Of a DNA stretch of 64,000 nucleotides, positions 2,423-40,136 are shown piece by piece. Under the pieces are notes generated by a model, which made no database searches, was not told the origin of the DNA, and saw only the letters and a list, made by a program, of their open reading frames with translations. A program made the position numbers and the translations under genes. Within the stretch, counting starts at the first letter, position 1; the number at the start of each line of letters is the position of its first letter. Origin of the DNA: Pelagicoccus sp. SDUM812005 (GTDB lineage: Bacteria; Verrucomicrobiota; Verrucomicrobiia; Opitutales; Opitutaceae); contig NZ_JARXIA010000004.1 in the NCBI RefSeq assembly GCF_031127875.1, positions 124,001 through 188,000 of the forward strand, read 5' to 3'.

Positions 2423-2549
2423 TGTCGTTTCACTCATAAGTCTGCACTTAGTGCAGGCTGATGTGCAATTTTTGCGAGTGCAAACTTATGTGCAATTTTG
2501 CGAGTGCAAATTCATGCGCAATTCGATGCCAGTGCAAACTTATGTGCAA
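2423..2549. repeat. Left transposon end with TnsB-type repeats
   Basis: The terminal site (2435-2447, CATAAGTCTGCAC) is followed by four 18-bp copies at 2451-2468, 2478-2495, 2504-2521 and 2532-2549, spaced 26-28 bp. Two of them read exactly GTGCAAACTTATGTGCAA. The internal copies are in the opposite orientation to the terminal site, so sites 1 and 2 form a head-to-head palindrome around 2442-2456 (CTGCAC-TTA-GTGCAG). Each repeat is itself two GTGCAA hexamers 12 bp apart. Confidence 0.85.
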
Positions 2550-2627
2550 ACAACAACCAGTAATGGTGGATTAGCTGGATGCCTAAAATTCCAGCTACTG
2601 CAAGCCAAGAGTTAACCTTGGATTGTC

Positions 2628-2656
2628 GTAACCCTGATTCCCGTCTTCAGGGTTAC
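2628..2656 (-). terminator. Strong hairpin after the tniQ-tnsC-tnsAB operon
   Basis: A perfect 10-bp stem, GTAACCCTGA (2628-2637) with TCAGGGTTAC (2647-2656), lies 80 bp past the tniQ1 stop, between the operon and the left repeats. There is no clear U-tract. It would isolate the transposon end, and the nearby tRNA, from operon transcription. Confidence 0.5.
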
Positions 2657-2735
2657 ATGCCGAGGGGGCATCGGAAGGGTTTTGTTTGGAGTCCCCGGGG
2701 GAGGGGTCTCCTTTTGGGGTGGCGTTCCTTGGGGC

Positions 2736-4016
2736 CTACGCCTTGTTCTGCAGGTCGGCGACGAAATCGTTTGTCCACTCGGCCCTGAAGACTCCAGGAT
2801 TTTTCATGAAATGGACCATGTTTCGTTTGTTTGCTGGCATGCCAAGCTCGTGGCAAAGTTCCGCTGCTTCGGTGATTTCCGCTTTGATTCCCGCCGTTGC
2901 GACTCTGCTTCGCGCGCTCCTGAATAGAAGGTGCTTCGAACAGTACTCTTTCGCCATTTCAGGGTACCTGTTTCTGACGGCCCCGTGGGACTGTTTCAGT
3001 TCGTTTTCGCAAAGCGACCGAAAGGAAACCCTTGAGTACGCTCTGCTTGCTAGGGCTTTGTTGAGGAACTCTTCGGTTCTCTCGTGATCGAGCTCAGCTT
3101 TGCTTCTCCGCTTTTTAGGTCGGATGGCCAGCTTGAGTGGGTTTTGGGTTCGTTCTGCTGATCCTAACCCGAGATGTCGCTGGGTGAAGAACTCGACTGG
3201 TTTCACGTTGAAGCACTGGAGGACGTTGAGGAATTCGTCGATCTTTGGCAACGCGTTGTCCGCAAGCCACGAGCGAATGCATGATTTCGAGACCCCGAGG
3301 CTCTGGCTTTGCCCAGAGCTGCTGTCCAGGTTGAAGTATTCGAAATGCGCATGGAGCGACTTGCTGAAGCTAAAGCCGGAAGTGGCCCCGGTATAGGCGA
3401 GCAATTCGCCAATAGATCGGCTAGACCAGATGTAGTACTTGCGATTGTTGTAGCTACGGTGGGACCTTTCGTATTGATCTAGCTCCTCGGGCGGGTTTTC
3501 GCAGTATTCCTCGAGTTTGGCGTCGCAGTGGCTGCAGTATCCTATTTTGCCAGCAAGAGTACTGGCTTTGGCTTGCTTCTTGCAGCGGTTGCAAAACGTT
3601 TCAAGTAACTCGCCTTCCTCTGTCCAGTGTACCGGTTTGATTTCGAAGAGCAGGCGTTCGTATTGCGAGCTTTCCCACGGGGCGAAGTACTTTTGGGTCT
3701 TGAGGATTCCAGGTCCAATCACGTGGTTCCATCGAAGGGTTGTGAGGAGGGCCAATTGAGAGGCAGCCGTTAGCCTTTCAACCGCTTTTATCAGCTTAAC
3801 CGCAGTTTCGGTTCCTGAATTCAATGTGCTGAACAGGCTGTTGTTGAAGCGATTGCGTTTCCCGAGATCGATTGAGGCATTTCGTGAAAGGTACGTCATC
3901 AGATCTGATAGCGGCACGTAGTTGGCGCTTGCCAGTCGTGTCAGGTAGGAGGTAAGCGACTCGACTGACGCTGTTCCAATTCCGAGGGGGGCGACGGTAA
4001 CCAGTGAACTTTTCAT
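2736..4016 (-). CDS. tniQ: TniQ/TnsD-family target-selection protein 1
   Basis: A 426-residue TniQ family protein, the Tn7-type factor that binds target DNA (TnsD-like) or an adaptor and recruits TnsC. The N-terminus (PLGIGTASVESLTSYLTRLA) matches the TniQ start, and a zinc-binding pair of motifs lies at Cys142/Cys145 and Cys161/Cys164. A C-terminal helical half contains a likely HTH around residues 245-280. Its start overlaps the tnsC stop by 4 bp (ATGA), so the two are translationally coupled, and it is the last gene of the tnsAB-tnsC-tniQ operon next to the left end. As the operon-encoded TniQ it is the best candidate for recognising the tRNA attachment site; this is inference. A second TniQ lies at 9517-10866. 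Confidence 0.9.
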   Translation of the reverse strand: MKSSLVTVAPLGIGTASVESLTSYLTRLASANYVPLSDLMTYLSRNASIDLGKRNRFNNSLFSTLNSGTETAVKLIKAVERLTAASQLALLTTLRWNHVIGPGILKTQKYFAPWESSQYERLLFEIKPVHWTEEGELLETFCNRCKKQAKASTLAGKIGYCSHCDAKLEEYCENPPEELDQYERSHRSYNNRKYYIWSSRSIGELLAYTGATSGFSFSKSLHAHFEYFNLDSSSGQSQSLGVSKSCIRSWLADNALPKIDEFLNVLQCFNVKPVEFFTQRHLGLGSAERTQNPLKLAIRPKKRRSKAELDHERTEEFLNKALASRAYSRVSFRSLCENELKQSHGAVRNRYPEMAKEYCSKHLLFRSARSRVATAGIKAEITEAAELCHELGMPANKRNMVHFMKNPGVFRAEWTNDFVADLQNKA

Positions 4017-4954
4017 GGGCGTGCTCCCAGTTCGTCCTCAGGCTTTTTGCGCTTCCCTGGCCTTCGGCTTCCTTTCGAGGACTCTTTGCGTTGATCTGGT
4101 GCCCTGCTGCGAGCGAAGAAGCTTCGGACTTCGTCTATTTCTTGAGGCCGTTGATTGTAGGGGTCCACAGGGTTGACTTGTTTAATTAGTTCCTTGGTGA
4201 CCGTGCTTATCTCGAATTCCGACGCGACGGCTTCGCATCTTACCAGGAGTTCCTTCAACGCACCGATGCAGCCGTTCGTTGCGTCAAAGATGTGCTGAGC
4301 GTCCTTCCTTAGGTCCTCGCACAACTCGAGCGAAGTCTCTTTGAGGAATGCTGTGAGGGCCTGGCTGAAGACTTTACGTTCCTTTTCGTTGTGCGCGGAG
4401 TACGGTTTGAAGTGTAGGACGTGTGACCTGTTGATGACTTGGCCGTCCAGCGCTATAATCTTGGTCAAATGTCCCGTGCCGACGAACATATGCGGCACTT
4501 GGGTAATATTCATCAAATTCTTCAGGAACTGAAGGTTTGCGTATGTTTGCCTTGTACTTTCCAGGGATATGAAGAGATCCGCTTCGTCGATTATAACAAG
4601 CTTAACGTTCTGTTCCTTTATTCTTTTTGTGATCAGCTTGAGGGACAGGTCTTGGGTGGTCCTTTCTCGTACTCGAGATTCGGCGAAGGGATCGCCCAGC
4701 GCTTTTAGGTAGCTTACGAGAAAGGGTTTGTAGGTGAAAAAATTGGTTTGTCGAGGCGGGCAGTTAAAGTATATTGCGTTAGGTCCTCTGTTGTTATAGT
4801 CATCGTAAATCTCTCGGGCCAAGGTTGTCTTTCCGACTCGAGACACTCCGACCAGAAATATCATAAACTGTGTGAGTCTAGAGTTTATTAGGGATGTTGC
4901 TATCCTTTTGGCGCGCGCGTAATTGCCGTGCCGATATGGTGCGTTTTGCTTCAT
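4013..4954 (-). CDS. tnsC: TnsC AAA+ ATPase transposition regulator
   Basis: A 313-residue AAA+ ATPase that in Tn7-family elements forms rings or filaments on target DNA and links TniQ/TnsD to the TnsA/TnsB transposase. Walker A is GVSRVGKTT (Gly36-Thr44) and Walker B is VIIDEAD with Asp123-Glu124. The basic C-terminus (RRPGKRKKPEDE) may contact partners. The ATG lies 18 bp after the tnsAB stop and the stop overlaps tniQ1 by 4 bp, giving a compact operon. The length is close to short TnsC/TniB proteins and shorter than Tn7 TnsC (about 555 aa), so target-immunity or TnsA-interacting extensions may be reduced. Confidence 0.9.
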   Translation of the reverse strand: MKQNAPYRHGNYARAKRIATSLINSRLTQFMIFLVGVSRVGKTTLAREIYDDYNNRGPNAIYFNCPPRQTNFFTYKPFLVSYLKALGDPFAESRVRERTTQDLSLKLITKRIKEQNVKLVIIDEADLFISLESTRQTYANLQFLKNLMNITQVPHMFVGTGHLTKIIALDGQVINRSHVLHFKPYSAHNEKERKVFSQALTAFLKETSLELCEDLRKDAQHIFDATNGCIGALKELLVRCEAVASEFEISTVTKELIKQVNPVDPYNQRPQEIDEVRSFFARSRAPDQRKESSKGSRRPGKRKKPEDELGARP

Positions 4955-4972: not shown

Positions 4973-7609
4973 TTAGTCTTCGAACAGATCCATCTCGATG
5001 GGGTCAGTTGTCGTGTCGTCTAGGGCTATTTCGAGTTTCTGGTTCTCCTTCTTGTTGTTCTTTGGGGCGGGCGATTGGGGTTGCTTTGGAAGGGTCTTCT
5101 CCTTGATTTTAAGTTCCTGCAGCCATGCCGCCTTGTCGGTGACTCGTAATTTTTTAAGTAGCGGTCGCAGCGCTGCTTTTGCGCTTTCTAGGATGCTGAA
5201 CTCTCTGATTTCCGCGACGGACATGATGTTTTTCTTGTGCCCTTTAAGTTCCGCCCTGTGGTATTCCCCCTTGTAGGCGAATTCGATGTAAGTGAGATCA
5301 AGTGGGTCGTATCTTACCGGTAGGCTTTCCTTGTCGAGTTCTGGTCTGCTGAGGATAGCGGAACAGTATGTGAGGTTGTGCAGCTCCAAGGCCCCTCTGC
5401 GTACTGTTCGCTCTCCGTTACCCGAGGCTTCCGGGAGTGTCGCGGAACGAAATTTGTCAGCGTCGGATACTATCCGTTTTTCTTCGCTCAAAAGCTTTGA
5501 GAAACTTGCATCGTGTTTTTCGCGAGGTGTCGTGCAGATGCTGCTGTGTATGAGCGTTTCGTTGTACTTTTTAACGTAGTTTGCGAAGGTGTCCTCGACG
5601 TCACATATTCGCCATACGGCACGGTTCTTCGCTTTGAATTCCCTTGAGACTGATCGTGGGTTTACCATGAGTACCGTGTTGCCTTTCATGTTGTGCCACA
5701 AGTCGAGGTTCGCCGTCTTGAAGAACCGTTCGACTTTGTTCCCGCACCTTGGCTTCCCTACGGGTCTGTAGTGGATATCCGTGCGGTATCTAGCGCATAG
5801 CCCCTGAAACATGCCGGAGCTAAATTCGCTTCCGCCATCGACGCTAAAGCAGGTTGGCATGTATCCTACGTTCGATAGGATGCTCCTCATCGTAAGCATT
5901 ATGGACGCTCGGGAAGGCGGGATCATGAGGAAGCACCACCCCAGTATCATGCGACTGAACGTGTCGATTGCGACAGTCAGCCATAGCCTGCCTGATAGTT
6001 TTATCGACTCCTCCCCGATCGCTTCGAGGTCAATCTTCGTGTGGTCGATCTCGACGACGTGCCCGGCGTATTTGCCTACCGCCATCCCGGAGTGTTTCCC
6101 GGAGTAGTGTTGCTCCTTTTGGTAGGCAGCCTTTGGTCCTTCTTTTTTGAGGGTGACCAGACGTTCGCTAATTCTCTTGAAGGCCCTTGTGAAGCTTGAA
6201 TAGGTAACGGCTGGAAGCTTTCTGCGTTCCGCTTCAATCGCATAGTCCGCCCATGCTTGATGCAAGTTCTTGCTCTCTCGAGAGACCGAATCGGTGAGTC
6301 CGAAATTTTCGACATCCCTGATGTTGGCCTTCTCAAGCTCCTTGTCGCTCAAGCCCAGGTACGCCCTAAATATATAGCTTTTTAGGAGGTTGATCGACTT
6401 GCGATCCGTTTTAGGTTTTGTATTGCCGTTTCGTATTCTAGGTATGAGCCCTGAGATTCCGCAGCCGTACGCTGAGAGTCCAAACTTGTACTGCGCTTTG
6501 TAGCTGTAATATGTTCGTCTCGTTAGGCATTTCTTGTCGCCTCTTTCGTATCTGGATATTTTTTTTAGCTTCTCTAGCGCAATTCTTTGCCTGTCTGGAC
6601 TAGAGGCGTTGTAGGGGGTGTCTGGCTGTTGTGTATTGGAGGTATTGATCGTGCCCTCGCGAAACTTCTCTTCGATCGCGGCAGCGTTTAGTTCGGTGGG
6701 TTTATCGTTCTCGTCTATGGCTTGCAGTTTGCCGTTGTGCGAGCCGCAGATGCGGTAGGTTTTTGTGCCCCAGCGTATTTCCGATCCTTCGGACAGATTC
6801 AGCTCTCTTGGAAGGTCTTTAAGTCTTTGGGCACGCGGAACTGTATGTTCCGAGCATAATGAGCTGTATAGACGGAAATTCTTTATATCGTCAAGCGAGG
6901 TGCTGAAAACGTCGCTGTGAAACTTGCCGTTCGCGACGAGCCAGCGAGTGCATTCGAGGGTATCGTTCTTTCCTAATTCCTCGATGATTTCTGCCTGGGT
7001 GACCAATCCTCGGGAGCCAACCAGTTCGGCTATTTTTGTGGCCAACGCCTTGTTGGGTGCCTCCCTTTTTGTATAGCTTTTAAGTCGGCTTGCATTTTCG
7101 TGAAGAGCCGGACCTAGCTCCTCCCTCGTTACCAGTATATGCTGGATTCCCATCTTGGCGAAACTGGCTTCAGCTTCTGGATCGCGGTAACCGTTATGGT
7201 CCTTGATGAACTTGCTGTTCTGCTTTTTCAGCTCCTTTTCAATTTCCTCTTCCGGTTTCGTTTCGATGGCCACTTGGGTTCCGGTGTTGAGGGCTGCGAG
7301 GAAATCGGTGATGTAGTCCCTGGATGTCTCGCGCCCTAGCTTGTCGATGCGCTTAACCCGCACTGGAGGTGGTTGCTCCCAATATGCTGCGACGTGCGGG
7401 CAAACTTCCAAGGCGAGAGCGGTTTCGTACTCATGGTCAGATTCGCACCAAACCGTACGTCCCATTTTGTCGGACGCGAATTTCGTGAGGCGATTTCCGT
7501 AGCCTGTATCTGTTGGGTATCTCGAGGGTCCTTCGGCGATCCTTCTTTCGAGGTAGTGGCGATCGGGAGTGAGGTGGCTGATTTTGCTTAGTATGTGGTT
7601 CAAGTTCAT
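4973..7609 (-). CDS. tnsAB: TnsA-TnsB fusion transposase
   Basis: An 878-residue single polypeptide joining the two catalytic subunits of Tn7-type cut-and-paste transposition. Residues 50-170 are a TnsA-like restriction-type endonuclease: SDHE with Glu60, TDF with Asp102, and ETK with Lys118, matching the TnsA E/D/K active site that cuts the 5' strand. Residues 330-780 are TnsB/Mu-type DDE integrase: Asp522 (EIDHT), Asp591 (VDGGSEF) and Glu627 (KVERFF), which cuts and joins the 3' ends. The middle has an HTH-like DNA-binding region. The C-terminus is Lys/Pro/Asn-rich, ending in an acidic tail (PIEMDLFED) that may contact TnsC. All catalytic residues are present. TnsAB fusions are known in some Tn7-like and I-B CAST elements. 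The upstream region carries a candidate operator and a divergent repressor gene. Confidence 0.93.
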   Translation of the reverse strand: MNLNHILSKISHLTPDRHYLERRIAEGPSRYPTDTGYGNRLTKFASDKMGRTVWCESDHEYETALALEVCPHVAAYWEQPPPVRVKRIDKLGRETSRDYITDFLAALNTGTQVAIETKPEEEIEKELKKQNSKFIKDHNGYRDPEAEASFAKMGIQHILVTREELGPALHENASRLKSYTKREAPNKALATKIAELVGSRGLVTQAEIIEELGKNDTLECTRWLVANGKFHSDVFSTSLDDIKNFRLYSSLCSEHTVPRAQRLKDLPRELNLSEGSEIRWGTKTYRICGSHNGKLQAIDENDKPTELNAAAIEEKFREGTINTSNTQQPDTPYNASSPDRQRIALEKLKKISRYERGDKKCLTRRTYYSYKAQYKFGLSAYGCGISGLIPRIRNGNTKPKTDRKSINLLKSYIFRAYLGLSDKELEKANIRDVENFGLTDSVSRESKNLHQAWADYAIEAERRKLPAVTYSSFTRAFKRISERLVTLKKEGPKAAYQKEQHYSGKHSGMAVGKYAGHVVEIDHTKIDLEAIGEESIKLSGRLWLTVAIDTFSRMILGWCFLMIPPSRASIMLTMRSILSNVGYMPTCFSVDGGSEFSSGMFQGLCARYRTDIHYRPVGKPRCGNKVERFFKTANLDLWHNMKGNTVLMVNPRSVSREFKAKNRAVWRICDVEDTFANYVKKYNETLIHSSICTTPREKHDASFSKLLSEEKRIVSDADKFRSATLPEASGNGERTVRRGALELHNLTYCSAILSRPELDKESLPVRYDPLDLTYIEFAYKGEYHRAELKGHKKNIMSVAEIREFSILESAKAALRPLLKKLRVTDKAAWLQELKIKEKTLPKQPQSPAPKNNKKENQKLEIALDDTTTDPIEMDLFED

Positions 7610-7669: not shown

Positions 7670-7791
7670 AAATGGCAAGTGGAAAGTGAAAGGTGACTGG
7701 GGGTCGCGCTGTTAAAAGGCGGAAAACCTGGGCGACTTCGCACGAAATAATTTGAAGAAGTTGTCCTGATTGGCTCATCTTGAGGGCTGAA

Positions 7792-8718
7792 ATGAAACTA
7801 TCTGCGACAGGAACAGACTCTTTTGTGGAGCGAATGAAGGAAATCGTGGCCGACTCCGGCGGAATGAAGGCATTCTCCGAAAAAGTGGGGGTTTCTTATT
7901 CGTCTGTCAGGAAATACTTGAATGGAACTGACCCTTCTAGGGCGGTAGTTGCCCGTATTGTAACAACTTATAAGGTTAATTCCGATTGGCTGTTGAATGG
8001 CGTTGGCCCGAAGTCGCAAGCGGCCAAAGGGGGTGCCGAGCCTGAAAGTGCGTTCTTGAGGCAGTATCTTAAAGGATTTGCCAATGACCCTGATGTCGTG
8101 GCTGAAATTTGCAGTGGAGCTCGCCTTGAAGCAGGACGTTTGATTTCGATCGCAAACGGGGAAGAGCCCTCGTTGAGCGAGGCAATTAGGATATCGGAGG
8201 CCTCGAATTTGGGCAGGGTAGTGGGCGGTGGTGTCTCGGAGGAACCGAGGGCTGAGCTGGTTTGGGTGCCCGAGTTTGATTTATCTCTGTACAGGGAGAT
8301 TTTGTTGGAATACTTCGATTTTCGGGAAGAGTTCCAGCGCAAGCGCGAGTTCTTGAGGAAATCGAAAAAGAAGGGTGCGGTCGTATTCCGCAGGGAATTT
8401 TTGCGGCAGGAGTTTTCCGGTGACCTGCACGATTTGGTTTGTTATAGGATGGACAACGACTCGATGTTTCCGGATGCCCCTCGCGGAAGTATTCTTTTTT
8501 TGGATATCTCTAGGACGAATCTAGAGAACGGTCGAATGTTCCTGCTTTACTTCAATGGCAGTTTGCTTGTTCGGGAGGCCAGGGACACCGGAGTTGTGGC
8601 TAGCTGGGAGCTTCACGACAAACGTTCGTCCAAGCCCATCCAGCTGAGCAACACCGAGCTATCGGATAACAACATTGTTGTTGGCATGGTGACCCATGCT
8701 TTCAAGAGCTGTGGTTAG
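7792..8718 (+). CDS. XRE-family repressor with S24 (LexA/CI-like) C-terminal domain
   Basis: A 308-residue phage-type repressor divergent from tnsAB. The ATG at 7792 is preferred: AGGG lies 5 bp upstream, while an upstream TTG at 7780 has no such site. Residues 24-70 are an HTH of the C2/CI type ending in the usual DWLLNG motif. Residues 205-300 resemble the S24 domain, with Ser224 in DNDSMFP followed by RGSILFLD. The expected catalytic Lys is Arg261 here (LLVREA), so self-cleavage in response to RecA may be lost and another inducer is likely. Position and orientation suggest it represses transposition genes, its own promoter, or both. The following gene overlaps it by 23 bp. Confidence 0.82.
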   Translation: MKLSATGTDSFVERMKEIVADSGGMKAFSEKVGVSYSSVRKYLNGTDPSRAVVARIVTTYKVNSDWLLNGVGPKSQAAKGGAEPESAFLRQYLKGFANDPDVVAEICSGARLEAGRLISIANGEEPSLSEAIRISEASNLGRVVGGGVSEEPRAELVWVPEFDLSLYREILLEYFDFREEFQRKREFLRKSKKKGAVVFRREFLRQEFSGDLHDLVCYRMDNDSMFPDAPRGSILFLDISRTNLENGRMFLLYFNGSLLVREARDTGVVASWELHDKRSSKPIQLSNTELSDNNIVVGMVTHAFKSCG

Positions 8719-9160
8719 GCGGATGGTTAGAGTGGGGGCTCGGTTTCCGTATCGGCTGCTGCAACCCCCGGTTGATCGAGAGAGGCTCATTTGGCTGCTG
8801 GAGGGCATATTGTTCGAATTTCTGGATTCTCAGGCTTGCAACCTATATATAAATCAAAGGGGGATTGGAGAGTTCGAGGTTCGGATGCGTCGACGAAAAG
8901 GGGAGGAGCTGCGTCGACTCTTCAAGGTCGACGCTGCCTATATGGACCCGTTGATTGGATTGATATTGCACTTGGCGAACAGGGCGTTTGCTGGGGAGGG
9001 GCCTCTCTTGTCTGAGTTTGGTCAGGAAAGGATGCGGATTTATGCGCAGTTCGAATCCAAAATCTACGAGATTCCCGTTCTTATGGTTATCAACCCTAAG
9101 GATAAGCGATTTATAGATTTTGGGCGCCCGGAGGTTCAGGAGGAGAATAAGGGCATCTGA
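8696..9160 (+). CDS. Small protein cotranscribed with the transposon repressor, unknown function
   Basis: Up to 154 residues, overlapping the repressor gene; an alternative ATG at 8723, right after the repressor stop, would give 145. The fold looks alpha/beta, with a basic central stretch (RMRRRKGEELRRLFKV). The pattern of the middle (FLDSQACNLYINQ, then EVRMRRRKG) faintly recalls the N-domain of PilT/GspE secretion ATPases, but no ATPase domain follows and the match is too weak to name it. Co-transcription suggests a partner or modulator of the repressor, or of TniQ2, which converges from the other side. Confidence 0.6.
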   Translation: MLSRAVVRRMVRVGARFPYRLLQPPVDRERLIWLLEGILFEFLDSQACNLYINQRGIGEFEVRMRRRKGEELRRLFKVDAAYMDPLIGLILHLANRAFAGEGPLLSEFGQERMRIYAQFESKIYEIPVLMVINPKDKRFIDFGRPEVQEENKGI

Positions 9161-9516: not shown

Positions 9517-10866
9517 TCACGCTTGAGGCAGTTCTTCTCTTCGTTCGAGAAGTTTAGATCTACTCATTTCGTATGCTTGTTCTGGAGCATCGCGGATCTC
9601 TTGGATTAGTTCTGAAGCCCACTTAAAGTTCAATATCTTTGGTTCTGTAACCAAATGCGATATCGACGATCCCGTTATAGGGAGGCCCATTTTTGAGCAA
9701 ATCCATGCGGCCTCTCTGATTTCCTCTTCGCGAGCGGTTCGTTTCACGTGCGCTCTCAGCTTTTTGTAAAGCGAGTGCGACTGTAGGAAGTCTTCCGCTA
9801 GGTCGGGAAGCAGTCGTTTCACTGCCTCAGGTTTGATCTCTAGGTCTTCCTTACAAAACTTATAGAACGATTGCGTTGCAAAAGCTTTCCTTTTTATTGC
9901 TTTGCTTAGCGATGCTTCAATGAAATCTCGCTCAATTCGGAGCGAATTGGTCTTCGTCGCGGGTGGTTCTGAGATTGGTTGTGTGTTCGTCTCAAAGTCT
10001 ATCGCGATTTGCAGCTTGGTTTGGGTCAAGAGCTCGATCGGAGAGGTCTGTAGTGAGTGGCAAAGCTGAATGAATTGTTTGAGGGTGGGAAGCGTTTTTT
10101 CGTCTATCCAATCGTGTAGTAGTTTTGCGGAAAATGGAAGTCGACTTTTAGTCAGTTTAAGCTCCCCTTTACTCATGCAGGATAGGTGAGCCCGTAAGGC
10201 TTCGCTGAGGGAGAGTTTTGATGGGGACTTGCCGTAGGAGAGTAGATCGCCAACTGCTTTTGTGGCCCACGAGTAGTACTCGTTGTATTGGAGGTTTAGC
10301 ATTACTCTGCTAGTATTGTCGAATCGTTTCGCTGTAGGATCGCTGTATCGGTCGAGGAGCCTGCCGCATTTGTAGCAGCAGTTGAGGCTGCTTGGGGAGG
10401 GGTGATACCCCGATGGCCTATGGCATGCGTGGCAGTGTTTTTCTAAGGCCTTTCCCTCTAGGCTTTGGTAGACTGGGGTTAGGGAGAAAAGGAGTGGCTC
10501 GTAGGTTAGAACTGAATTTGGATCGAACCAGCGGTCCCTTTTTTGGATTCCGTTTCGTATTATATTGCTCCACCTTGAGATCGTAAGGAAGCTTAGGTTT
10601 TGTTTGCTGGTCAACGTTTCAAGCTCTGTAATTATTTTATTTGTTTCTTCGCGAACGGAATTGATAGTGCTGAGAATCTTGCTTGTTTGGAATTGACTGG
10701 TCTTGTCCGAGATTAGTCCTGCTTTCGTATACAAAAGCTGGAGCAGCTTTGTGGGTTTAACGTCGTTTGCCCAGGCTGTGCGAATGATGTACGAATAAAG
10801 GGATTCGACCATCGGCGTACCGATGCCGATTGGTTCTACGGGAATCAAGTTCTCTTTGAATGCCAT
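9517..10866 (-). CDS. tniQ: TniQ/TnsD-family target-selection protein 2
   Basis: A 449-residue second TniQ protein, paralogous to the first. The N-terminus (EPIGIGTPMVESLYSYIIR) aligns with that of TniQ1 (APLGIGTASVESLTSYLTR). Both share the zinc motifs, here Cys145/Cys148 and Cys164/Cys167, and a C-terminal helical region with an HTH-like segment. It is separately transcribed, convergent with the repressor unit. Tn7-like elements often have two targeting routes, a safe-site TniQ/TnsD and a second for plasmids or another site; which of these two does what cannot be told from sequence. The frame is intact with no sign of decay. Confidence 0.88.
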   Translation of the reverse strand: MAFKENLIPVEPIGIGTPMVESLYSYIIRTAWANDVKPTKLLQLLYTKAGLISDKTSQFQTSKILSTINSVREETNKIITELETLTSKQNLSFLTISRWSNIIRNGIQKRDRWFDPNSVLTYEPLLFSLTPVYQSLEGKALEKHCHACHRPSGYHPSPSSLNCCYKCGRLLDRYSDPTAKRFDNTSRVMLNLQYNEYYSWATKAVGDLLSYGKSPSKLSLSEALRAHLSCMSKGELKLTKSRLPFSAKLLHDWIDEKTLPTLKQFIQLCHSLQTSPIELLTQTKLQIAIDFETNTQPISEPPATKTNSLRIERDFIEASLSKAIKRKAFATQSFYKFCKEDLEIKPEAVKRLLPDLAEDFLQSHSLYKKLRAHVKRTAREEEIREAAWICSKMGLPITGSSISHLVTEPKILNFKWASELIQEIRDAPEQAYEMSRSKLLERREELPQA

Positions 10867-12080: not shown

Positions 12081-12959
12081 TTAGAGGTGTTTTTTTCGCT
12101 GAGGTTGGCGAGTCACGCTCCGCAGCAACTGACCCCCGCAGTCTTTGCCTTCTTGGATCGGCTTCGACAGTTTGAGAATTTTCAACGCGCCTTTCATGAC
12201 GAAGGTGAAGACGGTGGCGCCGATTAGAAGGTCGGGCCAGCGGCTATCCAGAAGGTAGACGAGGACTCCTGCAATGATCACGCCGCCGTTTACGATGATG
12301 TCGTTGGAGGTGAATATAGCGCTGGCTTGCATGTGGGCTTCGCTGCTCTTGGCTTTGGTGATGATGATGAGCGAGACGATGTTGGCCGCTAGTGCGAGCG
12401 TGGCTACGAGGATCATCCAGCTGAATAATGGCGTTTGGGAGTCGGTGAAGAAGCGTCGCAGCACTTCGGCGAAACCGAGCAGTGCGAGGCTTATCTGAAA
12501 GTAGCCGCTGAGCTTGGCGATTTTCTTCTTGGTGGCGACGGCGGCTCCGACGGCGAAGAGGCTGAGGCCGTAGACCATGGAGTCGGCGAGCATGTCGAGG
12601 GAGTCGGCCACGAGCCCCATGGAATGGGAGATCCAGCCGGAGAGCATCTCGATGAGGAAGAAGCTGAAGTTGATGCCGAGCACCCAACTGAGGGCGGCGC
12701 GTTGGATGTTGCCTTTCGAACGCTCGGCGGATGGGTCGTCGTCGGTGGTCTCGATGGCTTTGGCTCCGAGACCGAGGGTATCGAGCTCGGCGGCGATATG
12801 GTCGGGATCTCCTTGGTGGTAGACTTCTAGGGTACGATTGGGAATGTCGAATTCGAGCTGAGATACATGGCCGAGGGGCTCTAGGGCCATGCGGATGATC
12901 TGCTCCTCGGAGGGGCAGTCCATGTCTTTGACGTGGAAGGTGGTCTTATTATTGGGCAT
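12081..12959 (-). CDS. HMA-CDF fusion cation exporter
   Basis: A 292-residue inner-membrane protein joining a ferredoxin-like HMA metal-binding domain (residues 1-75) to a six-helix cation diffusion facilitator domain (85-275), predicted to export divalent metal by proton antiport. The HMA motif is DMDCPSEE, with a single Cys where CxxC is usual. The CDF helix-2 site reads ADSLDMLADS and helix-5 reads FTSNDIIVN instead of the common HxxxD, so the metal preference is probably not a plain zinc site. It starts inside the end of the upstream RND gene (11-bp overlap), so it is the last gene of the first HME-RND operon. An IS begins just after its stop. Substrate is unknown. Confidence 0.82.
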   Translation of the reverse strand: MPNNKTTFHVKDMDCPSEEQIIRMALEPLGHVSQLEFDIPNRTLEVYHQGDPDHIAAELDTLGLGAKAIETTDDDPSAERSKGNIQRAALSWVLGINFSFFLIEMLSGWISHSMGLVADSLDMLADSMVYGLSLFAVGAAVATKKKIAKLSGYFQISLALLGFAEVLRRFFTDSQTPLFSWMILVATLALAANIVSLIIITKAKSSEAHMQASAIFTSNDIIVNGGVIIAGVLVYLLDSRWPDLLIGATVFTFVMKGALKILKLSKPIQEGKDCGGQLLRSVTRQPQRKKHL

Positions 12960-27206: not shown

Positions 27207-27211
27207 GGCGG

Positions 27212-28336: not shown

Positions 28337-28351
28337 TTTCTTCTAAAGGAT

Positions 28352-31679: not shown

Positions 31680-32537
31680 ATGAAGCTACAAGACATTAAG
31701 CAAGCCCAGCACAGGGCACACGAACTCAAGGACCCAAAGCTCTTTGAGAAAATACTGGTAGACCTTCAGAAGCTTAGCAAAAAGGACGCCGAGAATTTTT
31801 TCGGAGCAAAGCTAACCAGACTGGATTGTTACTACATGCTCGGACGCTGGAAAGACCTCGCGGATTACAGCCTGGAGTTAATCAAGAACGACGAAGAAGA
31901 CCCGCTAGCCTACCTTGGAGCGGCTCAAGGACTCTCCAAGCTAGGGCGAAAGGAAGAAGCGGCTGAAATGCTGAACAAGTCGCTGGAAATCTGGCCGGAC
32001 AACTATGAGACCTTAAAGTTTCTCGGTTCACTGGAGGGAGGCTCCGAGTCTACCGAAGAGCAAAATGATGCGCCCCAAAAAGGGAGGATTATTTACGTCG
32101 GTATGGACGATGTGCTGTGTGATTACTCTACGGCTCACGATGAAGCGCTACATTTACACCCCGAGGTACAGTTTCCTCAAAGCATACCGGGATTCTTTGA
32201 AAATCTGCCAGCGATTGACGGAGCTGTCGACGCGGTCAACGAACTGAGGAAAAGCTACGACCTTTACATTCTCACCGCTCCATCAACCCGAAATCCAACG
32301 AGCTATAGCGAAAAACGAATCTGGATTGAAGAGCACTTCGATTACGAGCTTACCAAGCGATTGATAATCTGCCCAAACAAGGGGCTACTGATTGGTGACT
32401 TCCTGATCGACGACCGGAGTTCGGGAAAGGGGCAGGAGAACTTTAAAGGGCAACTTATTCAGTTTGGATCAACGGGTTACCGGGATTGGGAAACTGTCGT
32501 GGAATACTTTCACTGCTTACCAGAAAAACCCGAATAA
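31680..32537 (+). CDS. TPR-HAD (5'-nucleotidase NT5C-like) fusion lacking the nucleophile Asp
   Basis: 285 residues. Residues 1-120 form two or three TPR-like helical hairpins (DPLAYLGAAQGLSKLGRKEE). Residues 136-280 match the bacterial 5'(3')-deoxyribonucleotidase/NT5C-like HAD fold, ending with GDFLIDDR and a FKGQLIQFGS stretch. The HAD motif, normally DMDGV, reads GMDDV here: Gly141 stands in place of the nucleophile Asp (codon GGT, one base from GAT), with Asp143 kept. The protein may bind but not hydrolyse nucleotides. An AGGAG abuts the ATG. The metallophosphoesterase gene follows 37 bp later on the same strand. Confidence 0.75.
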   Translation: MKLQDIKQAQHRAHELKDPKLFEKILVDLQKLSKKDAENFFGAKLTRLDCYYMLGRWKDLADYSLELIKNDEEDPLAYLGAAQGLSKLGRKEEAAEMLNKSLEIWPDNYETLKFLGSLEGGSESTEEQNDAPQKGRIIYVGMDDVLCDYSTAHDEALHLHPEVQFPQSIPGFFENLPAIDGAVDAVNELRKSYDLYILTAPSTRNPTSYSEKRIWIEEHFDYELTKRLIICPNKGLLIGDFLIDDRSSGKGQENFKGQLIQFGSTGYRDWETVVEYFHCLPEKPE

Positions 32538-32574
32538 CTCAGTGCGGGACCGAGGGCGTCCATACTCTCAACAC

Positions 32575-33375
32575 ATGAAGATACAGGTAATCAGCGACTT
32601 ACATCTGGAGCGAGATTCAACCCCCTTCCGCTTCATCGACGCTGGGACTGAGCTAGTCGTCCTTGCTGGAGATATTCATTCACTAACCCTCGGAGTTGAC
32701 TGGGCAGTATCCGCGATACCGAACAAGCCGGTTCTGTATGTCCTAGGCAATCACGAGTACTACGGCGGTAGCTTTCCCAGATTGATTGATGAATGCCGAG
32801 CGAAAGCGGAAGGCACTAATGTAACGGTACTTGAGCGGGATATCGTGGAATATGGAGGATTCAGGTTCTTTGGAGCTACACTTTGGACTGACTTCTCCCT
32901 GTACGGAAACCCCGGGCTACATTCTCGCATCGCTCGTGTTGCGATGAACGACTATAGGTTAATCCGAAACAACACGACTGGTCGAGGCTTGGACCCTAGG
33001 GACACGAAGCACTGCCACTCGGAAACGCTAGTGAATCTGATCGAGTTTCTAGAGTCCGGAGACTTGAGCAGATCCATCGTAATAACCCACCATTTGCCCA
33101 CATATTGTTCGGTACATCAGGACTACCAAGGCAATCCGCTAAGCGCAGCCTTCGCATCTAGGTTGGACAGCCTGATCGAGAGCGAAGGCCCCTCGGTATG
33201 GATACACGGTCACAATCATCAGGGCCTTGATTACCTAATTGATAGAACCCGAATTTTCGCGAACCAGAAAGGCTACTCTGGCGAGATCCCTAAAGGATTG
33301 GAGTTCGACCCAACAGCCACAATCGACCTGGAAGCGGAACGAATACGCTACGCTAAACAAACTAAAAAACTATAA
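32575..33375 (+). CDS. Calcineurin-like metallophosphoesterase
   Basis: 266 residues from ATG 32575 (MKIQVISDLHLE). All metallophosphoesterase motifs are present: SDLH (DxH), LAGDIH (GD), GNHEYY (GNHE), THHLPT (H) and IHGHNH (GHxH), giving a two-metal hydrolase of phosphoesters. No signal peptide, so cytoplasmic. The substrate is unknown. It is paired with the nucleotidase-like gene upstream, which suggests a nucleotide-related role. A longer frame starting at 32464 overlaps the upstream gene and is not preferred. Confidence 0.85.
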   Translation: MKIQVISDLHLERDSTPFRFIDAGTELVVLAGDIHSLTLGVDWAVSAIPNKPVLYVLGNHEYYGGSFPRLIDECRAKAEGTNVTVLERDIVEYGGFRFFGATLWTDFSLYGNPGLHSRIARVAMNDYRLIRNNTTGRGLDPRDTKHCHSETLVNLIEFLESGDLSRSIVITHHLPTYCSVHQDYQGNPLSAAFASRLDSLIESEGPSVWIHGHNHQGLDYLIDRTRIFANQKGYSGEIPKGLEFDPTATIDLEAERIRYAKQTKKL

Positions 33376-34754: not shown

Positions 34755-37700
34755 TTATTGACATGCATTGTCGCGACCGAGATTCTTTTTGAAGAAAACG
34801 CGTCCAACCGGTTCTCCGGCTTCAAGAAAAAATGTGCCTCGATAGTCGAGCTTTCCATGGAATTTCAAGTTGCGTGAGTTCCAAAGTTGTTTCTCCCCGT
34901 AGGTCAGCCAGAAGACGGCTAGATTGTTCTGTTGGAGCCAGGATTCGAATGCGGTACGATCTACGAGTGCAAAGCTTGGACCTTTTTCATCAACACTTGG
35001 ATCTCGGAAAACCGTATTCCCTTCAGGGTCTTGCCATGAGCCGAAAAGACCGTACTTGTGCTTGAGCCCCAGTCCTTCAATTAGCTCCAGTGACGGCACA
35101 TGAATGCTGAAAGACTCTTCAATCGAGTGATCCCGACTTTTGCTTTCCAGTCCGAATGTAGATGTTGGGACGAGATAGTCGACGGGAACCAAAGGCCTGA
35201 AACTGTCTTTTGAACTTCTCCAGTTTGAGTCTCCGCAGGTCTGGTGCCAAGGGTATTCCAGATAGAATGTCTCATTTCCGATTTCTGGCGTGTTCATCCA
35301 TTCACGCTTATTCTTTGGATCGATCAGATGGGCTTTGACTGCATCCACATCTTCTGATCTAACTATAATTGTCCTGATGTAGAATGACGCGTCTAACCGT
35401 GGCGCGTGTTTGTCAGCATCGTCTTTTTGGTTTTCGTGCCAACCGCCATTGAGAACAAGCCATTCGCATCCATTGCCCGGCTCTTTTGCGCAGAATAGGG
35501 AGGGGAAATCTGGGATGTTATCTTCTGACCAAACGAATTTTTCCTGAGCGTCGTAGTCGTTGAGCTTTTCTAGATTAAATTGAAAGCTTTGCCACCATGT
35601 CGGTGTTGTGTCGTAGAATGAATTCGGTGACGCTTTTTTCCTGATCCAGATCGTGGGATCAATGTCACGCTTGGATAATTGCCATGGCCCTTCATATCTG
35701 CGGTCTTCATCTTCAGAGTAGTCGTTTACGATCCAGTGCAGGTTGTCCGCAAGCCTTGCGAGTAGCTCATGGAGAGCAATCCATTGGTATTTCTTTCCCA
35801 TACGCTCCATATGCGATGTAGCACGGCTAGTGCTGCTTCTGTGGGAACAGACCTCTTCGAAAGACTTAAAGAGCTTCTCAGTCCATCCGAACCTATAGGC
35901 ACGTTTGCAAACCCATCGCTGTGCCCACTTTCGGCTAAATGCTGGCGCTCCTCTTGTATCAACACCTTTGAGCCATCGAAAGTACTCCTTGTCCTCAGGA
36001 GAAAGGTTTTGGGTGATCCTCGTGAAAAACTCCTCGCGCTCTTTTTGGAATTCTTGGTTCAATTTGCGAAGATCCTCTAACTTGGCTTTGGTTATGTCCT
36101 CTAGAAAATCGATTTGCTGCAAATCGTAGTCTTTGCGGCTTCGAGTGGGCTTTGAAATCGCTAGAAATCTTATCTTATCGATTTCGGAAAAGTGCTTTTC
36201 GGCAAATTCATAACATAGCTCGTATCCGGTTTTTGGGGATTGTTCGCTTAAGGGCGTTGGCGACCAGTCATGAACGCAGCTCATCGTGTAGTTGCCAAAG
36301 TCTCCTGGAAACCCCATGAGAGAGCTGCGGATGCTTGATCGGTATTGGTCTCCGGTTAGCTCATCGAGTTCGGCCTCGGTCGGGTTTTCGATAGGCCATT
36401 CGCTTTTGTATGGGGGACGAAAGCTATCTGGGGCGATTGAACTGGGAAGAACACCTCTATGGAGTGCCAGCTCCAGTATGCTACGTGCATAATCCCGCAA
36501 GAGGATATGCGCCGGTGGTTCACCGCCTCGGAAGAGTGTCTCGTAGACCAGGTCGGCGATCTTGGTTTGAAGTCTCCCATCTTCGATGTGGCAGAATACG
36601 CCAAGAACGACGGCATATAGTCTCTCGCTCAAATAGGGGTCATTTATGTCTGAGAACTCTTTAATCAAGGAGGGCACGAATGCAGGATGATTCGCTAGAA
36701 GTCTTACGATCGCTTTTGTTGTCAGATCTCTGACTCTCCGGTTCGGTGTGGTATGAAACCACATGAGCGCTGTTGCACATAGGCGAATTCTTTCAGCTTC
36801 GGTTTCTGATATGTCGCCGAGGCAAGCCCAATCAATGAGAGTAAGGACGATGCTTTCCGGTTGGTCTTCGTCTTCTTCGTAGTCGGAGATCGCGATATAG
36901 GTTGACCAGATATAGTCGCGCTCTGCCATTGATCGCTTTTTCAGGCTGTTGTGGAGCATGTCCGCGTTCCACGGATGGTTGGGTTCGGTAGAGAGTTGAA
37001 GCAGGATATCGATCGCTGGTTTCTCGTGTAGGCTGGATCTACAAAGATTGAGGAGTTCCCGCGTTCTCTCAGTTATTGAAGTGCCGGATCTCCACAGCAC
37101 GGTGTTTCTGAATAGATCCTCTAGCCCCCATCTGGAGATATTTATTTCTCCTGGAAGCAGGTCAATAAATTCGAGTTTAAAGTGCTCAGCGATGGCGATG
37201 GCCAAAGCCTCATATATCCCTTGTAGGCGGAGGAAGCTATTTTCGGTTAAAAGGGCGTTGATTTGCCCGCCCTTCTCGAAAAGCTGTGAAATGTCTGCGC
37301 CCGTGCATCCTTTTAGGATTTGATCTGCTATGAAGTGATCGCTGAATCGCTCATATGTGAATCGAATGACCGGTTGAGACGAGTGCTCCGAATACACGAT
37401 GTCTTCTGCGAGGATGCCCTCATCCATCAAGATCTTGAACAGGTTCTCTCCTCTTTGAGGATCTGGATCAAAGGCGTTAATGATTCCTCTGGCCTGCGTC
37501 ATTGGAAAGCCTTCTGTGTGGTTGGGAAAGAGTTCTGAGGCGAAGCTCAGAAGGGTATTGCGAACGATTGCTTCAGCCGGATTGTATCCCTTTATCTTGG
37601 CGATATTTGCTTCGACGCTTGTGACAAAGAAATCGAATAGGCGGGTTATGCCGTTTAGCCCTTTAGGGAAGGCGGTTTCGCCGCGCGATTTTAGGGCTTT

Positions 37701-39284
37701 GCAGCAGGTTTTGAGGAAAAGTGGGTTGCTGAATTCCGGAGCAAGGATGGGTGCGCTTGGTTTGGAGATGCCTTGGCCAGAGAGGTATATGCTGGCAGCA
37801 CGATGTTCGAACCCTCGAAAGCCTTTATGTTGCACGCGCACCATCAATCCGCTGTCAAAATCATCTGGAAGGATATAGCGCAGGTACGTCGTCCTACAGC
37901 TTATCAGGAGGGAGATGTTTTGATATTGTTGAACCTCGACTAGAAATTTGCGGATGTTGTGTTTCCAGTTTTCTCGGCTTGAGCCTTCGTTGATCGCGTC
38001 AATGATGATCAATGTTTTGCTTCTTGCGGCTTCACCGGCAGCATCTAGGGCACCGAGTACATCGCCGTCTCTATGGCTCTTTAGATCGAGCTCGGTTTTT
38101 ATCAGGTCGATTGGATTGCCGCCGCAGTAGTGCTGCCCAAGCAGGAACACTGTGGGGAGATTGCTTTCATTGCGGTGCTCTGATATGTCGCAAAGCGTAT
38201 GGGATTTGCCGATACCCGCTTCTCCGTATAGGAGGGCTGAGCGTTTGAGGGCTATCTGATAGGCTGTTGTATTCAGAAAATACTTCAAAGATTGCCATTC
38301 ATTGAAGAATGATCTGAACGTGCTCTTCTCCGAGCTGTGTGTGGCGTTCCTATCGAGTTTGAGGTATTCATCATAAAATGACGCGTCGTATTCCTCTATT
38401 CTCTTGAGTGCATTTTTAAGATTATCAGTTCTATCGGAAATGTTGCGGTTTTTGATGGATTCTTTTAGCCTGGAAAGTAGTGTTTCGCTTTCGCTGATTA
38501 GAGCCTTGAGTGGTTCTGGCGATAGTGGCGGGGGCTGTGTTTTGGTGAATTCCTGAACGAATCTTTCGTGCCGGTCGGCTATGTTTCGGTGGATCGACTT
38601 TAACCTGTCCCACCATTCCGAGTTTGATCCAAGCCCGTCGAAATCTTTGATAATGGGGAGTTCAACGTTTTGCTCGGGCGTGTATCTCTCTCCCAGAACA
38701 AGCTTAGATTTTTGGCACAGGTCTTTGAATTGACGTGTGCCTATGATTGGTTCGTTGAACCAGAACAGAGCTCTACCGGTGTAGTGTGGATCGTCTGTTG
38801 AGAGATAGGTGGTGATTTCGTGAGCGCCCCAATATTTGATTTCGATGTCACGATTTTTTGCGGCTGCCAGCTTTTGCCATTTTTCGACAGTCTCGTTCCA
38901 TTTGTCGTCGAATGACTTTACCTTGTTACCCTTCGCACTTTTCTTGCGGCTATCGGTGCGGTCGAAGGGCAGGGCAACATAGAATTTTGTGAGCTTAGGG
39001 TGTTTCTGGAGTGCCGAAATAAAAGACTTATCAAGTTGCTTCCATTGGGAGGCGGTCATTCTTCGATCAAAATATTTCGCCTGCCAGCCGTGTTCGGTGC
39101 CATCTTCGAGCGTCCAATAACACTCGATCCCCGCATCGCCACCGGCTCCGTCTTTTCGGATAAAGGTGGTTGCTCCTTCGGGGGGAGCGAGATGTGCGAG
39201 TTGACAGACTAATTCTTCGAAGCCTTCGTCCTGGCTTCCGTTGTGTATTCTTATTTTAGAAAAATCTAGCTGAATGCTGGCCAT
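34755..39284 (-). CDS. STAND NTPase with N-terminal Mrr-like nuclease, Avs-type anti-phage candidate
   Basis: 1,509 residues. Residues 15-110 form a PD-(D/E)xK (Mrr-like) nuclease: Glu23 region (GFEELV), then GGDAGIE (Asp50, Glu54) and GWQAKYF (Gln68, Lys70). A STAND ATPase follows, with Walker A GEAGIGKS (354-361) and Walker B LIIIDAINEG (Asp429, Glu433). The remaining 1,000 residues are a long helical sensor region with no named repeats. This order, nuclease-NTPase-large sensor, and the length fit Avs (AVAST) proteins, which recognise a phage protein and then degrade DNA by oligomerising; the nuclease type points to an Avs4-like member, but the subtype is inference. It is the last cargo gene before the right end of the transposon, transcribed alone. 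Confidence 0.8.
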   Translation of the reverse strand: MASIQLDFSKIRIHNGSQDEGFEELVCQLAHLAPPEGATTFIRKDGAGGDAGIECYWTLEDGTEHGWQAKYFDRRMTASQWKQLDKSFISALQKHPKLTKFYVALPFDRTDSRKKSAKGNKVKSFDDKWNETVEKWQKLAAAKNRDIEIKYWGAHEITTYLSTDDPHYTGRALFWFNEPIIGTRQFKDLCQKSKLVLGERYTPEQNVELPIIKDFDGLGSNSEWWDRLKSIHRNIADRHERFVQEFTKTQPPPLSPEPLKALISESETLLSRLKESIKNRNISDRTDNLKNALKRIEEYDASFYDEYLKLDRNATHSSEKSTFRSFFNEWQSLKYFLNTTAYQIALKRSALLYGEAGIGKSHTLCDISEHRNESNLPTVFLLGQHYCGGNPIDLIKTELDLKSHRDGDVLGALDAAGEAARSKTLIIIDAINEGSSRENWKHNIRKFLVEVQQYQNISLLISCRTTYLRYILPDDFDSGLMVRVQHKGFRGFEHRAASIYLSGQGISKPSAPILAPEFSNPLFLKTCCKALKSRGETAFPKGLNGITRLFDFFVTSVEANIAKIKGYNPAEAIVRNTLLSFASELFPNHTEGFPMTQARGIINAFDPDPQRGENLFKILMDEGILAEDIVYSEHSSQPVIRFTYERFSDHFIADQILKGCTGADISQLFEKGGQINALLTENSFLRLQGIYEALAIAIAEHFKLEFIDLLPGEINISRWGLEDLFRNTVLWRSGTSITERTRELLNLCRSSLHEKPAIDILLQLSTEPNHPWNADMLHNSLKKRSMAERDYIWSTYIAISDYEEDEDQPESIVLTLIDWACLGDISETEAERIRLCATALMWFHTTPNRRVRDLTTKAIVRLLANHPAFVPSLIKEFSDINDPYLSERLYAVVLGVFCHIEDGRLQTKIADLVYETLFRGGEPPAHILLRDYARSILELALHRGVLPSSIAPDSFRPPYKSEWPIENPTEAELDELTGDQYRSSIRSSLMGFPGDFGNYTMSCVHDWSPTPLSEQSPKTGYELCYEFAEKHFSEIDKIRFLAISKPTRSRKDYDLQQIDFLEDITKAKLEDLRKLNQEFQKEREEFFTRITQNLSPEDKEYFRWLKGVDTRGAPAFSRKWAQRWVCKRAYRFGWTEKLFKSFEEVCSHRSSTSRATSHMERMGKKYQWIALHELLARLADNLHWIVNDYSEDEDRRYEGPWQLSKRDIDPTIWIRKKASPNSFYDTTPTWWQSFQFNLEKLNDYDAQEKFVWSEDNIPDFPSLFCAKEPGNGCEWLVLNGGWHENQKDDADKHAPRLDASFYIRTIIVRSEDVDAVKAHLIDPKNKREWMNTPEIGNETFYLEYPWHQTCGDSNWRSSKDSFRPLVPVDYLVPTSTFGLESKSRDHSIEESFSIHVPSLELIEGLGLKHKYGLFGSWQDPEGNTVFRDPSVDEKGPSFALVDRTAFESWLQQNNLAVFWLTYGEKQLWNSRNLKFHGKLDYRGTFFLEAGEPVGRVFFKKNLGRDNACQ

Positions 39285-39586
39285 TGAACGTGAATAAGTA
39301 TCTGATAGGTAGTGGGTAACTCCTCATTAGGCGTATAGCATTGTGGCAAATCAACCTATTTCTCTAGCAGCGAGCATTGGGGTAGCCTCAATTGTCTGCT
39401 GTTTCCCAGGCATCGGGAGGGGGAAGTTTTGGCTGAGAACGGGGTTCTGTTAGCACCTGTTGCTCGAGGGCATGTGCAATAGGCTCTTATGAACCGTAGG
39501 AGATTGTCTCCCATTTCAGAGCCCTTCAGTAAAAAAGACAAGATGGCCCCAAAAGATCACATATGGAGGGGAGTCTCATTGATCAC
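39285..39586. other. Upstream region of the Avs-type gene, no gene seen
   Basis: About 300 bp between the Avs start and the first right-end repeat. It should hold that gene's promoter; no strong consensus promoter is visible. The short frames present are not protein-like. Confidence 0.4.
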
Positions 39587-40136
39587 GTGCAAACCTATGC
39601 CGCGATTGATGTTCGGAGTTGATGATAATAGACTCAAATTGCGTCCAAAAATGCAAATTGATGGTTGAGGAGAGTGCACGGCTTTGCCTTATGCGACGTG
39701 ACAGTTCAAATGGTGAAGATCTGATAGCCGCGCGAGAATTCAATATAAGTCGAGATAGAAGGTTCTGAATTTAGGAAAGCGCATCTACACCAGAAGTTTC
39801 GGTGCAAACTTATGCGCAAATCTGGGAACTCGCGCATATTCTCTTGGTGCGTGTACGAGAGTGTGATTATCAGCAAGTTTCAGAATATGAGTGAATTACA
39901 CTGACTCTAGGAAAGGGTGACTTTGGAACGCGTGTACTGAGTGCAAGCTCATGTACAACAAAATCGAGTGCAAACTTATGTGCAATTTACGCGGTGCACG
40001 CTTATGCGCAATAATGTAGTTTCGTGCAAACTCATGCGCAAGAAACAGGGGCCCAAGACCTGGAAAAAAGGCATAAAAAAGCCGCAACGTGCAAATATAT
40101 GCGCAATTGCGGTGCAAGTTTATGGGTGAAACGACA
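39587..40136. repeat. Right transposon end with TnsB-type repeats
   Basis: Copies of the 18-bp repeat lie at 39587-39604 (degenerate), 39802-39819, 39941-39958, 39968-39985, 39994-40011, 40024-40041 and 40089-40106, then the terminal site from 40112 to the ACA at 40134-40136. All have the same orientation as the terminal site. The dense cluster (39941-40136) has six sites in about 195 bp, more than at the left end. The asymmetry between ends is normal in Tn7. Confidence 0.85.

Follow-up and report, generated by a model that had tools for sequence, protein, structure and literature searches.

A complete Tn7-like transposon carrying metal efflux and Avs2 genes at the 5' side of a tRNA gene in Pelagicoccus sp. 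SDUM812005

The 64,000-nucleotide stretch of the genome of Pelagicoccus sp. SDUM812005 analysed here (contig NZ_JARXIA010000004.1, positions 124,001 to 188,000; the window) contains at positions 2423-40136 a complete and structurally intact Tn7-like cut-and-paste transposon of 37,714 bp. It probably belongs to the branch of Tn7-like elements that possess a fused TnsA-TnsB transposase and home to tRNA genes, without the involvement of CRISPR, and would be guided by its TnsD-like selector TniQ1 to the 5' side of the gene for tRNA-Ile2(CAU). A preliminary description of the region had treated this tRNA gene as a plain neighbour; based on the sequence comparisons presented below it is most likely the homing target, with the insertion on its 5' (promoter) side. 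The element is present as a single copy in the genome of the strain (6.65 Mb in 118 contigs).

Element boundaries and end structure

The termini and the flanking duplication were located as follows:

2418-2422, no strand: left copy of the target-site duplication, CTTAC
2423-2549, no strand: left (tRNA-side) end, terminal TGTCGTTTCAC and five TnsB-type sites
2430-2449 (minus), 2449-2468, 2476-2495, 2502-2521 and 2530-2549 (all plus): left-end TnsB-type sites
39800-40136, no strand: right end, seven TnsB-type sites and terminal GTGAAACGACA, the inverse of TGTCGTTTCAC
39800, 39939, 39966, 39992, 40022, 40087 and 40110 (all plus): starts of the right-end TnsB-type sites
40137-40141, no strand: right copy of the target-site duplication, CTTAC

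The termini, TGTCGTTT.../...AAACGACA, are of the TGT/ACA type and form inverted repeats in which 21 of 28 positions are alike, the first 11 all being identical. They are flanked by identical copies of CTTAC representing a perfect 5-bp target duplication. Ends and duplication can be read to the base, and the boundaries given in the preliminary description are thereby confirmed.

Both ends consist of arrays of a 20-bp repeat with a core of about GTGCAAACTTATGYGCAA. Twelve copies scored above 20 bits with a weight matrix, five of them in the left 127 bp and seven in the right 337 bp. Elsewhere in the window no site exceeded 20 bits, the two sites at 9030 and 42780 reaching 12-13 bits, and resampling the window 30 times under a first-order Markov model yielded no repeat above 20 bits. 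Since the end repeats themselves served to train the matrix, the informative part of this result is the absence of repeats elsewhere.

The repeat is strongly one-sided, with scores of 21 to 31 bits for the strand on which it lies and of -15 to -2 bits for the opposite one. At the right end all seven copies, the terminal one included, are located on the plus strand. At the left end only the terminal copy lies on the minus strand, because the inverted end requires it to, and the inner four lie on the plus strand, copies 1 and 2 standing head to head with one base in common. The tRNA-side end is therefore unusual in that its terminal site is opposite in direction to the inner sites. A related element in a sister species (genome G003, see below) shows this arrangement at its left end too, with a flipped terminal copy ahead of two direct ones, indicating that the flipped terminal site is no local accident. 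According to the accessible part of a review (PMC11406308) end layouts vary widely, either end can be the one next to the attachment site, and an end with overlapping sites tends to face that site. The overlapping left sites facing the tRNA gene fit this tendency; a description of a flipped terminal site was not found in that part of the review.

Transposition genes

The transposition genes are located at the left side of the element:

2736-4016, minus: TniQ1, TnsD-like target selector, 426 aa (Pfam TniQ, 2.2e-5; PDB 8v32_J TnsD, 3.2e-22)
4013-4954, minus: TnsC/TniB AAA+ ATPase, 313 aa (Pfam TniB, 5.5e-12; PDB TnsC 8fcu_Q, 5.7e-16)
4973-7609, minus: TnsA-TnsB fusion transposase, 878 aa (Pfam rve, Mu-transpos_C and TnsA N-terminal; PDB 9bw1_M, 2.3e-59)
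7780-8718, plus: HTH and S24-like repressor, divergent from tnsAB (Pfam)
8696-9160, plus: open reading frame (ORF) of 154 aa overlapping the repressor gene, no Pfam family
9517-10866, minus: TniQ2, 449 aa (PDB 8v32_J TnsD over residues 7-285 only, 3.6e-19)

The reading frames of tnsAB, tnsC and tniQ are uninterrupted. They form an operon, tnsAB-tnsC-tniQ1, which reads outward to the left end and toward the tRNA gene, the latter lying 320 bp past the tniQ1 stop codon; the tnsC gene overlaps the start of tniQ1 by 4 bp. The fusion protein retains the DDE residues D522/D591/E627 as well as the TnsA-type residues D102/E116/K118, as predicted for a cut-and-paste endonuclease. In TnsC the Walker B motif is in place and a Walker A motif (GVSRVGKT) was read by eye. 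Several Pfam scores fell just below the cut-off (TniQ 25.6 and 26.2 vs 27; rve 32.1 vs 32.6; TnsA_N 25.0 vs 26.5), and these assignments are backed by the comparison with solved TnsAB, TnsC and TnsD chains, the best relatives being 9bw1_M for TnsAB, 8fcu_Q for TnsC and 8v32_J for TniQ1. Residues 3-413 of the 426 residues of TniQ1 align with residues 23-447 of 8v32_J, a solved TnsD, in an alignment over nearly the full length of the selector, and TniQ2 is a paralogue of TniQ1 with 28% identity (120 of 425). Core genes, catalytic residues and end repeats together bear out the Tn7-like identity that had been proposed.

No operator repeats of at least 14 nt were found between tnsAB and the divergent repressor gene. 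Inspection by eye revealed a serine in the NDSM motif of the repressor and an arginine at the position of the S24 self-cleavage motif at which a lysine would be expected, so that an SOS-type self-cleavage of the protein is doubtful. A similar divergent HTH/S24-like ORF adjoins a TnsAB gene in genome G010 (by eye).

The target tRNA gene and its upstream side

The element is flanked by a tRNA gene on the left and by the remnant of an integrase gene on the right:

2339-2415, minus: target-adjacent tRNA gene with anticodon CAT, its 5' end at 2415 facing the element (ARAGORN; Rfam tRNA, 71.2 bits)
40208-40462, plus: truncated start of a tyrosine-integrase gene, from an older island at the same tRNA gene (DUF6538 match below cut-off; alignment with G003)

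Upstream of the tRNA gene, 7 bp separate its 5' end from the element. ARAGORN assigned this gene to Met(CAT). The three best matches listed among 6,036 Escherichia coli records (81%) are annotated as tRNA-Ile, and the one that was retrieved is likewise called Met(CAT) by ARAGORN. Since this E. coli tRNA-Ile gene carries the CAT anticodon, the mark of tRNA-Ile2, the neighbouring gene most likely encodes the AUA-reading tRNA-Ile2(CAU) and not tRNA-Met. A tilS match above its cut-off was also detected in the window's genome. A single full-length copy of the tRNA gene was found in each of the eight genomes of the genus; of the nine further matches in the window's own genome, seven belong to different tRNAs, all lacking the CAT anticodon, and two are parts of a single half-tRNA locus.

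Five of the seven other genus genomes possess a TTGACA box on the upstream side of the tRNA gene, beginning at a distance of 45-52 nt, and G004 has TTGCCA at 48 nt. These boxes are promoter candidates only, a matching -10 sequence not being established. G003 has no such box within 200 nt upstream of the tRNA gene and one just past the right end of its own element; in the window none was found in the 200 nt upstream, neither with the occupied nor with the joined flanks. A consensus scan of 2339-2800 gave no sigma-70-type promoter match, and its sole terminator-like site lies on the plus strand, with none on the minus strand, which would allow read-through into the tRNA gene.

A conserved copy of the 3' half of the tRNA, 46-48 bp long, occurs elsewhere at L143 (G000:C96), L144 (G005:C1) and L145 (G007:C50), followed by shared sequence with CTAGTACAGAACTAGTACAG that is also present beside the tRNA gene of the window (within 2247-2276). 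These copies look like the attachment site of another element family.

The related element in G003 and the empty site

The preliminary description had proposed to look in relatives for the empty site and for the same ends around different cargo; a homologue of the former and an instance of the latter were located. No end repeat was detected within 1 kb upstream of the intact tRNA gene in any of the seven other genus genomes (the best sites having 6-7 mismatches of 18), and TnsAB had no match in any of the seven. In G003 the intact tRNA gene is directly followed by an integrase leader, and this region aligns with the joined flanks of the window across the insertion point with no extra sequence there, the leader of ~110 bp itself being diverged. 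G003 encodes a longer homologue of the integrase start of the window, which matches Phage_integrase (1.4e-16).

The same ends surround other genes in G003. Its element, a deleted relative, extends from C101:47527 to 53875 (6,349 bp, both ends present) and contains genes for an N-terminally shortened TniQ1 relative (66% over residues 153-425), for a HipA-like product and for an NT5C protein with 57% identity to that of the window. Left end, TniQ1, NT5C gene and right end are common to both elements; the other content differs. The G003 element is located upstream of a displaced copy (39 bp) of the 5' half of the same tRNA, at a distance of 12 bp from its 5' end. Between the half tRNA and the intact tRNA lie ~8 kb which start with a tyrosine-integrase gene and read as an island inserted in the tRNA gene. 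This island (G003:C101:39481-47514) apparently uses the 5' half of the tRNA and would in this way resupply the 5' half and the leader.

Distribution of the transposition proteins

A search of 372 genomes of the order for the end repeat (1 mismatch allowed), in whose listing G002 and G007 are absent, gave more than one match only in G000 (5) and G003 (3), and one each in four others. A first scan of genome contigs with the single TnsAB protein yielded 42 pattern stretches, none of which was confirmed. Using a TnsAB alignment (A1), 167 matches were confirmed, of which the best 80 (79 distinct loci) were kept; among these best 80 of 167, matches covering most of the query are ~23-26% identical, higher values representing partial segments. 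The identity to three aligned relatives is 22-24%. In plasmids 1,830 records had a TnsAB match, all below 60%, and the 20 among the matches listed are cyanobacterial.

TnsAB matches were obtained in seven of 95 genomes (relatives and the own genome) and TniQ matches in nine of 252 genomes of the bacterial family, again including the own one. The stretches around TnsAB/TniQ in G010, G011 and G257 and the short G118 locus contain no tRNA gene, except single CAT tRNAs more than 20 kb away (L133, L135); in G125 a tRNA cluster lies more than 12 kb from TniQ. TniQ/TnsC relatives were observed just past the 3' ends of a tmRNA gene in G250 (L123) and of a tRNA-Arg gene in G228 (L124). The far ends of these two elements were not found and their boundaries are unproven. 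A general link of this TniQ family to tRNA 5' ends is not supported by the survey of the 252 genomes.

Proposed mechanism and alternative explanations

We propose that TniQ1 would recognise the tRNA-Ile2(CAU) gene and, via TnsC, direct TnsAB to insert 7-12 bp upstream of the tRNA 5' end, whereas TniQ2 may serve a second target class. The HTH-S24 protein would repress tnsAB and keep its expression low, the tRNA would now be transcribed from the element, and the metal pumps and Avs2 would provide selectable cargo. A more far-reaching version, which we regard as unlikely, holds that this lineage targets the promoter side of the gene for tRNA-Ile2(CAU), which has a single copy and is probably essential, that it cuts this gene off from its native promoter and that it takes over its transcription, either by read-through from the outward tnsAB-tnsC-tniQ operon or from the element end. 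The cell would then depend on the transposon staying, the tRNA supply would be tied to transposase expression, and the flipped left-end site pair might help to choose the 5' side.

Two insertions next to the same tRNA sequence, at distances of 7 bp and 12 bp from its 5' end, suggest that the tRNA gene may serve as attachment site, and their common position supports a homing to its 5' side. Several observations weigh against this interpretation. There are only two insertions, both within one genus, and TniQ2 also resembles the TnsD chain 8v32_J; TniQ1 is presumed to be the one that recognises the tRNA. The window's element is single-copy in its genome, and evidence of excision or transposition was not obtained. 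The G003 element adjoins a half-copy of the tRNA and not the whole gene, and its flanks, CATGT and TTTGG, show no matching 5-bp duplication. In the absence of the duplication and of any TnsAB match in the G003 genome this element is considered a relic, and as its TniQ1 also lacks the N-terminal part, the original insertion event is not defined to the base. Finally, the location of the G228 and G250 relatives on 3' sides suggests that 5'-side targeting is not general in the family.

Given so few cases from one genus, and since the same tRNA also draws tyrosine-integrase islands, the element might be Tn7-like but unguided to this tRNA, having hit the 5' leader either accidentally or owing to a general tolerance of insertions at tRNA borders. 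We consider this unlikely, because in both cases, at 7 bp and 12 bp, the same element end is turned toward the 5' end of one and the same tRNA sequence, the outer flanks of the two species differ and the selector resembles a TnsD. The two insertions might also represent one targeting event, the G003 and window copies descending from one ancestral insertion, as ends, TniQ1 and NT5C are common to both in the same order. However, past the right end the window continues with the integrase leader and G003 with a region bearing the TTGACA box, and G003 additionally keeps an uninterrupted tRNA gene with integrase leader, homologous to the empty site of the window. A rearrangement could still mimic both differences, and common descent from one insertion retains a small share of our confidence. 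A comparably small share goes to a defective relic whose ends are intact and whose transposition is dead: the single copy and the lack of observed excision speak for it, whereas the uninterrupted core ORFs with catalytic residues and the perfect duplication speak against it. By the same evidence on either side, including the lack of a second-site insertion, the statement of the preliminary description that the element is recent and possibly active appears plausible but is only partly supported.

An RNA-guided element, that is a CRISPR-associated transposon (CAST) with an unseen guide or effector, is very improbable, even though the nearest solved TnsAB, TnsC and TnsD chains presumably come from CAST studies. 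No cas family was detected among the 30 element ORFs chosen (Pfam, E 0.001), no Rfam family other than tRNA, and hence no CRISPR-type RNA family, reached the gathering score, and tandem repeats are restricted to the left end and to a His-rich ORF. Within the element no sequence resembling a guide against the tRNA gene or its flanks was found, the longest exact match being 11 nt compared with a mean of 12.25 and a maximum of 15 in 100 control segments. With no Rfam match besides the tRNA, tandem repeats confined to these two places and no target-matching guide at the thresholds applied, RNA-guided homing was rejected.

Cargo and other features of the window

The cargo genes are located between the transposition genes and the right end:

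12081-12959, minus: CDF-type exporter with N-terminal extension, 292 aa (Pfam Cation_efflux, 1.3e-15; NCBIfam CDF, 61.7 bits, below the cut-off of 82.35)
12949-19079, minus: tripartite metal pump 1 (RND 12949-16113, adaptor 16098-17699, outer-membrane protein 17724-19079)
19730-21169, minus: PrmA/PRMT-like methyltransferase, 479 aa
21166-22086, minus: CDF exporter, 306 aa (Pfam, 3.8e-48; TIGR01297, 265.7 bits; above both cut-offs)
24045-29626, minus: tripartite metal pump 2 (RND 24045-27299, adaptor 27212-28336, outer-membrane protein 28352-29626)
31680-32537, plus: TPR and NT5C nucleotidase-like protein, 285 aa (G003 counterpart at L127:5070-5918, 57% aa)
32464-33375, plus: metallophosphoesterase, 303 aa (PADLOC candidate PDC-S10, 3.7e-9)
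34755-39284, minus: Avs2 STAND NTPase, 1509 aa (PADLOC PDLC02164, 1605.8 bits, residues 4-1501; PDB 9o4e_A Avs2, 3.7e-134, residues 196-1494)

The two tripartite metal pumps and two CDF exporters of the preliminary description were recovered by family matches: both RND permeases score above the CusA/CzcA (TIGR00914) cut-off, each with an adaptor and an outer-membrane protein, and the CDF-type exporter at 12081-12959 lies above the Pfam cut-off and below that of NCBIfam. The small ORFs beside the pumps (19189-19719, the His-rich 23434-24021, and 29723-30160) have no Pfam family. Pump 1 and its CDF gene (DNA 12165-19199) are in pieces 74-84% identical to copies in G006 (two places) and G002, and one of the G006 places also matches 20385-22726 with 71-73% DNA identity. 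As G006 has no end-repeat match, the pump 1 module lies, in G006 at least, outside any such transposon.

The Avs-type STAND NTPase, also proposed before, is supported by both PADLOC and PDB matches to Avs2. The model match spans nearly the whole protein, nothing unusual was seen in the gene, no Pfam family was found at 0.001, and the protein had no match in the seven other genus genomes. The TPR and NT5C gene is the only non-transposition gene found to be common to the window and G003 elements and may, for this reason, belong to the element core.

Beyond the element the window contains a third RND-type efflux locus (44840-53116), which comprises genes for a sensor kinase, a MipA-like protein, an outer-membrane protein and an RND protein. 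Next to it come a GH115 glycosidase gene (53228-55897) and an ORF of 2128 aa on the minus strand (55920-62306).

Comparison with known Tn7-like systems

Tn7-like elements with metal and defence cargo are already known as a kind. A survey (PMC8649781) reports, in its accessible part, Tn7-like elements with defence and metal-detoxification cargo, counts five Verrucomicrobia host species and describes integration downstream of tRNAs; the word Avs is absent from its main text. The element of the window thus carries the same cargo classes but is inserted upstream. In a literature search of partial coverage no Tn7-like insertion upstream of a tRNA was found described. As the insertion parts a single-copy tRNA gene from its likely promoter, it raises the question of how the tRNA is still made, and a lineage using the 5' side can show how TnsD and the arrangement of the ends determine the side of a target at which insertion takes place. 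The element furthermore adds a divergent TnsAB/TnsD set outside the cyanobacteria and represents a natural pairing of metal pumps with Avs2.

Compared with prototypic Tn7, the TnsA/B/C/TniQ logic, the TGT/ACA ends, the 5-bp duplication and the end-site arrays are alike. In contrast to Tn7, TnsA and TnsB are fused, a tRNA leader serves as target, the core operon is directed outward, to the target-side end, and the TnsE family had no match in the 30 scanned ORFs (Pfam).

The TnsAB-fusion, tRNA-homing branch includes, as far as covered by the accessible parts of PMC10293859 and PMC11406308, PmcCAST I-B2 and CyCAST/McCAST I-D. The element of the window shares with this branch the fused TnsA-TnsB, TnsC, and a TnsD-type selector with a second TniQ, a tRNA gene being its probable attachment site as well, and the branch supplies the best solved relatives of its TniQ1 and TnsAB. 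It differs in that no CRISPR effector or guide RNA was found in the element and in that its TnsAB is only ~23-26% identical to the full-length relatives found. CyCAST inserts 30-33 nt past the end of the tRNA according to the same partial sources, whereas the elements of the window and of G003 lie on the upstream side of their tRNA sequence, at 7 bp and 12 bp, respectively, from its 5' end. The position on the 5' side and the flipped end site are hence the features in which this element differs from the known systems.

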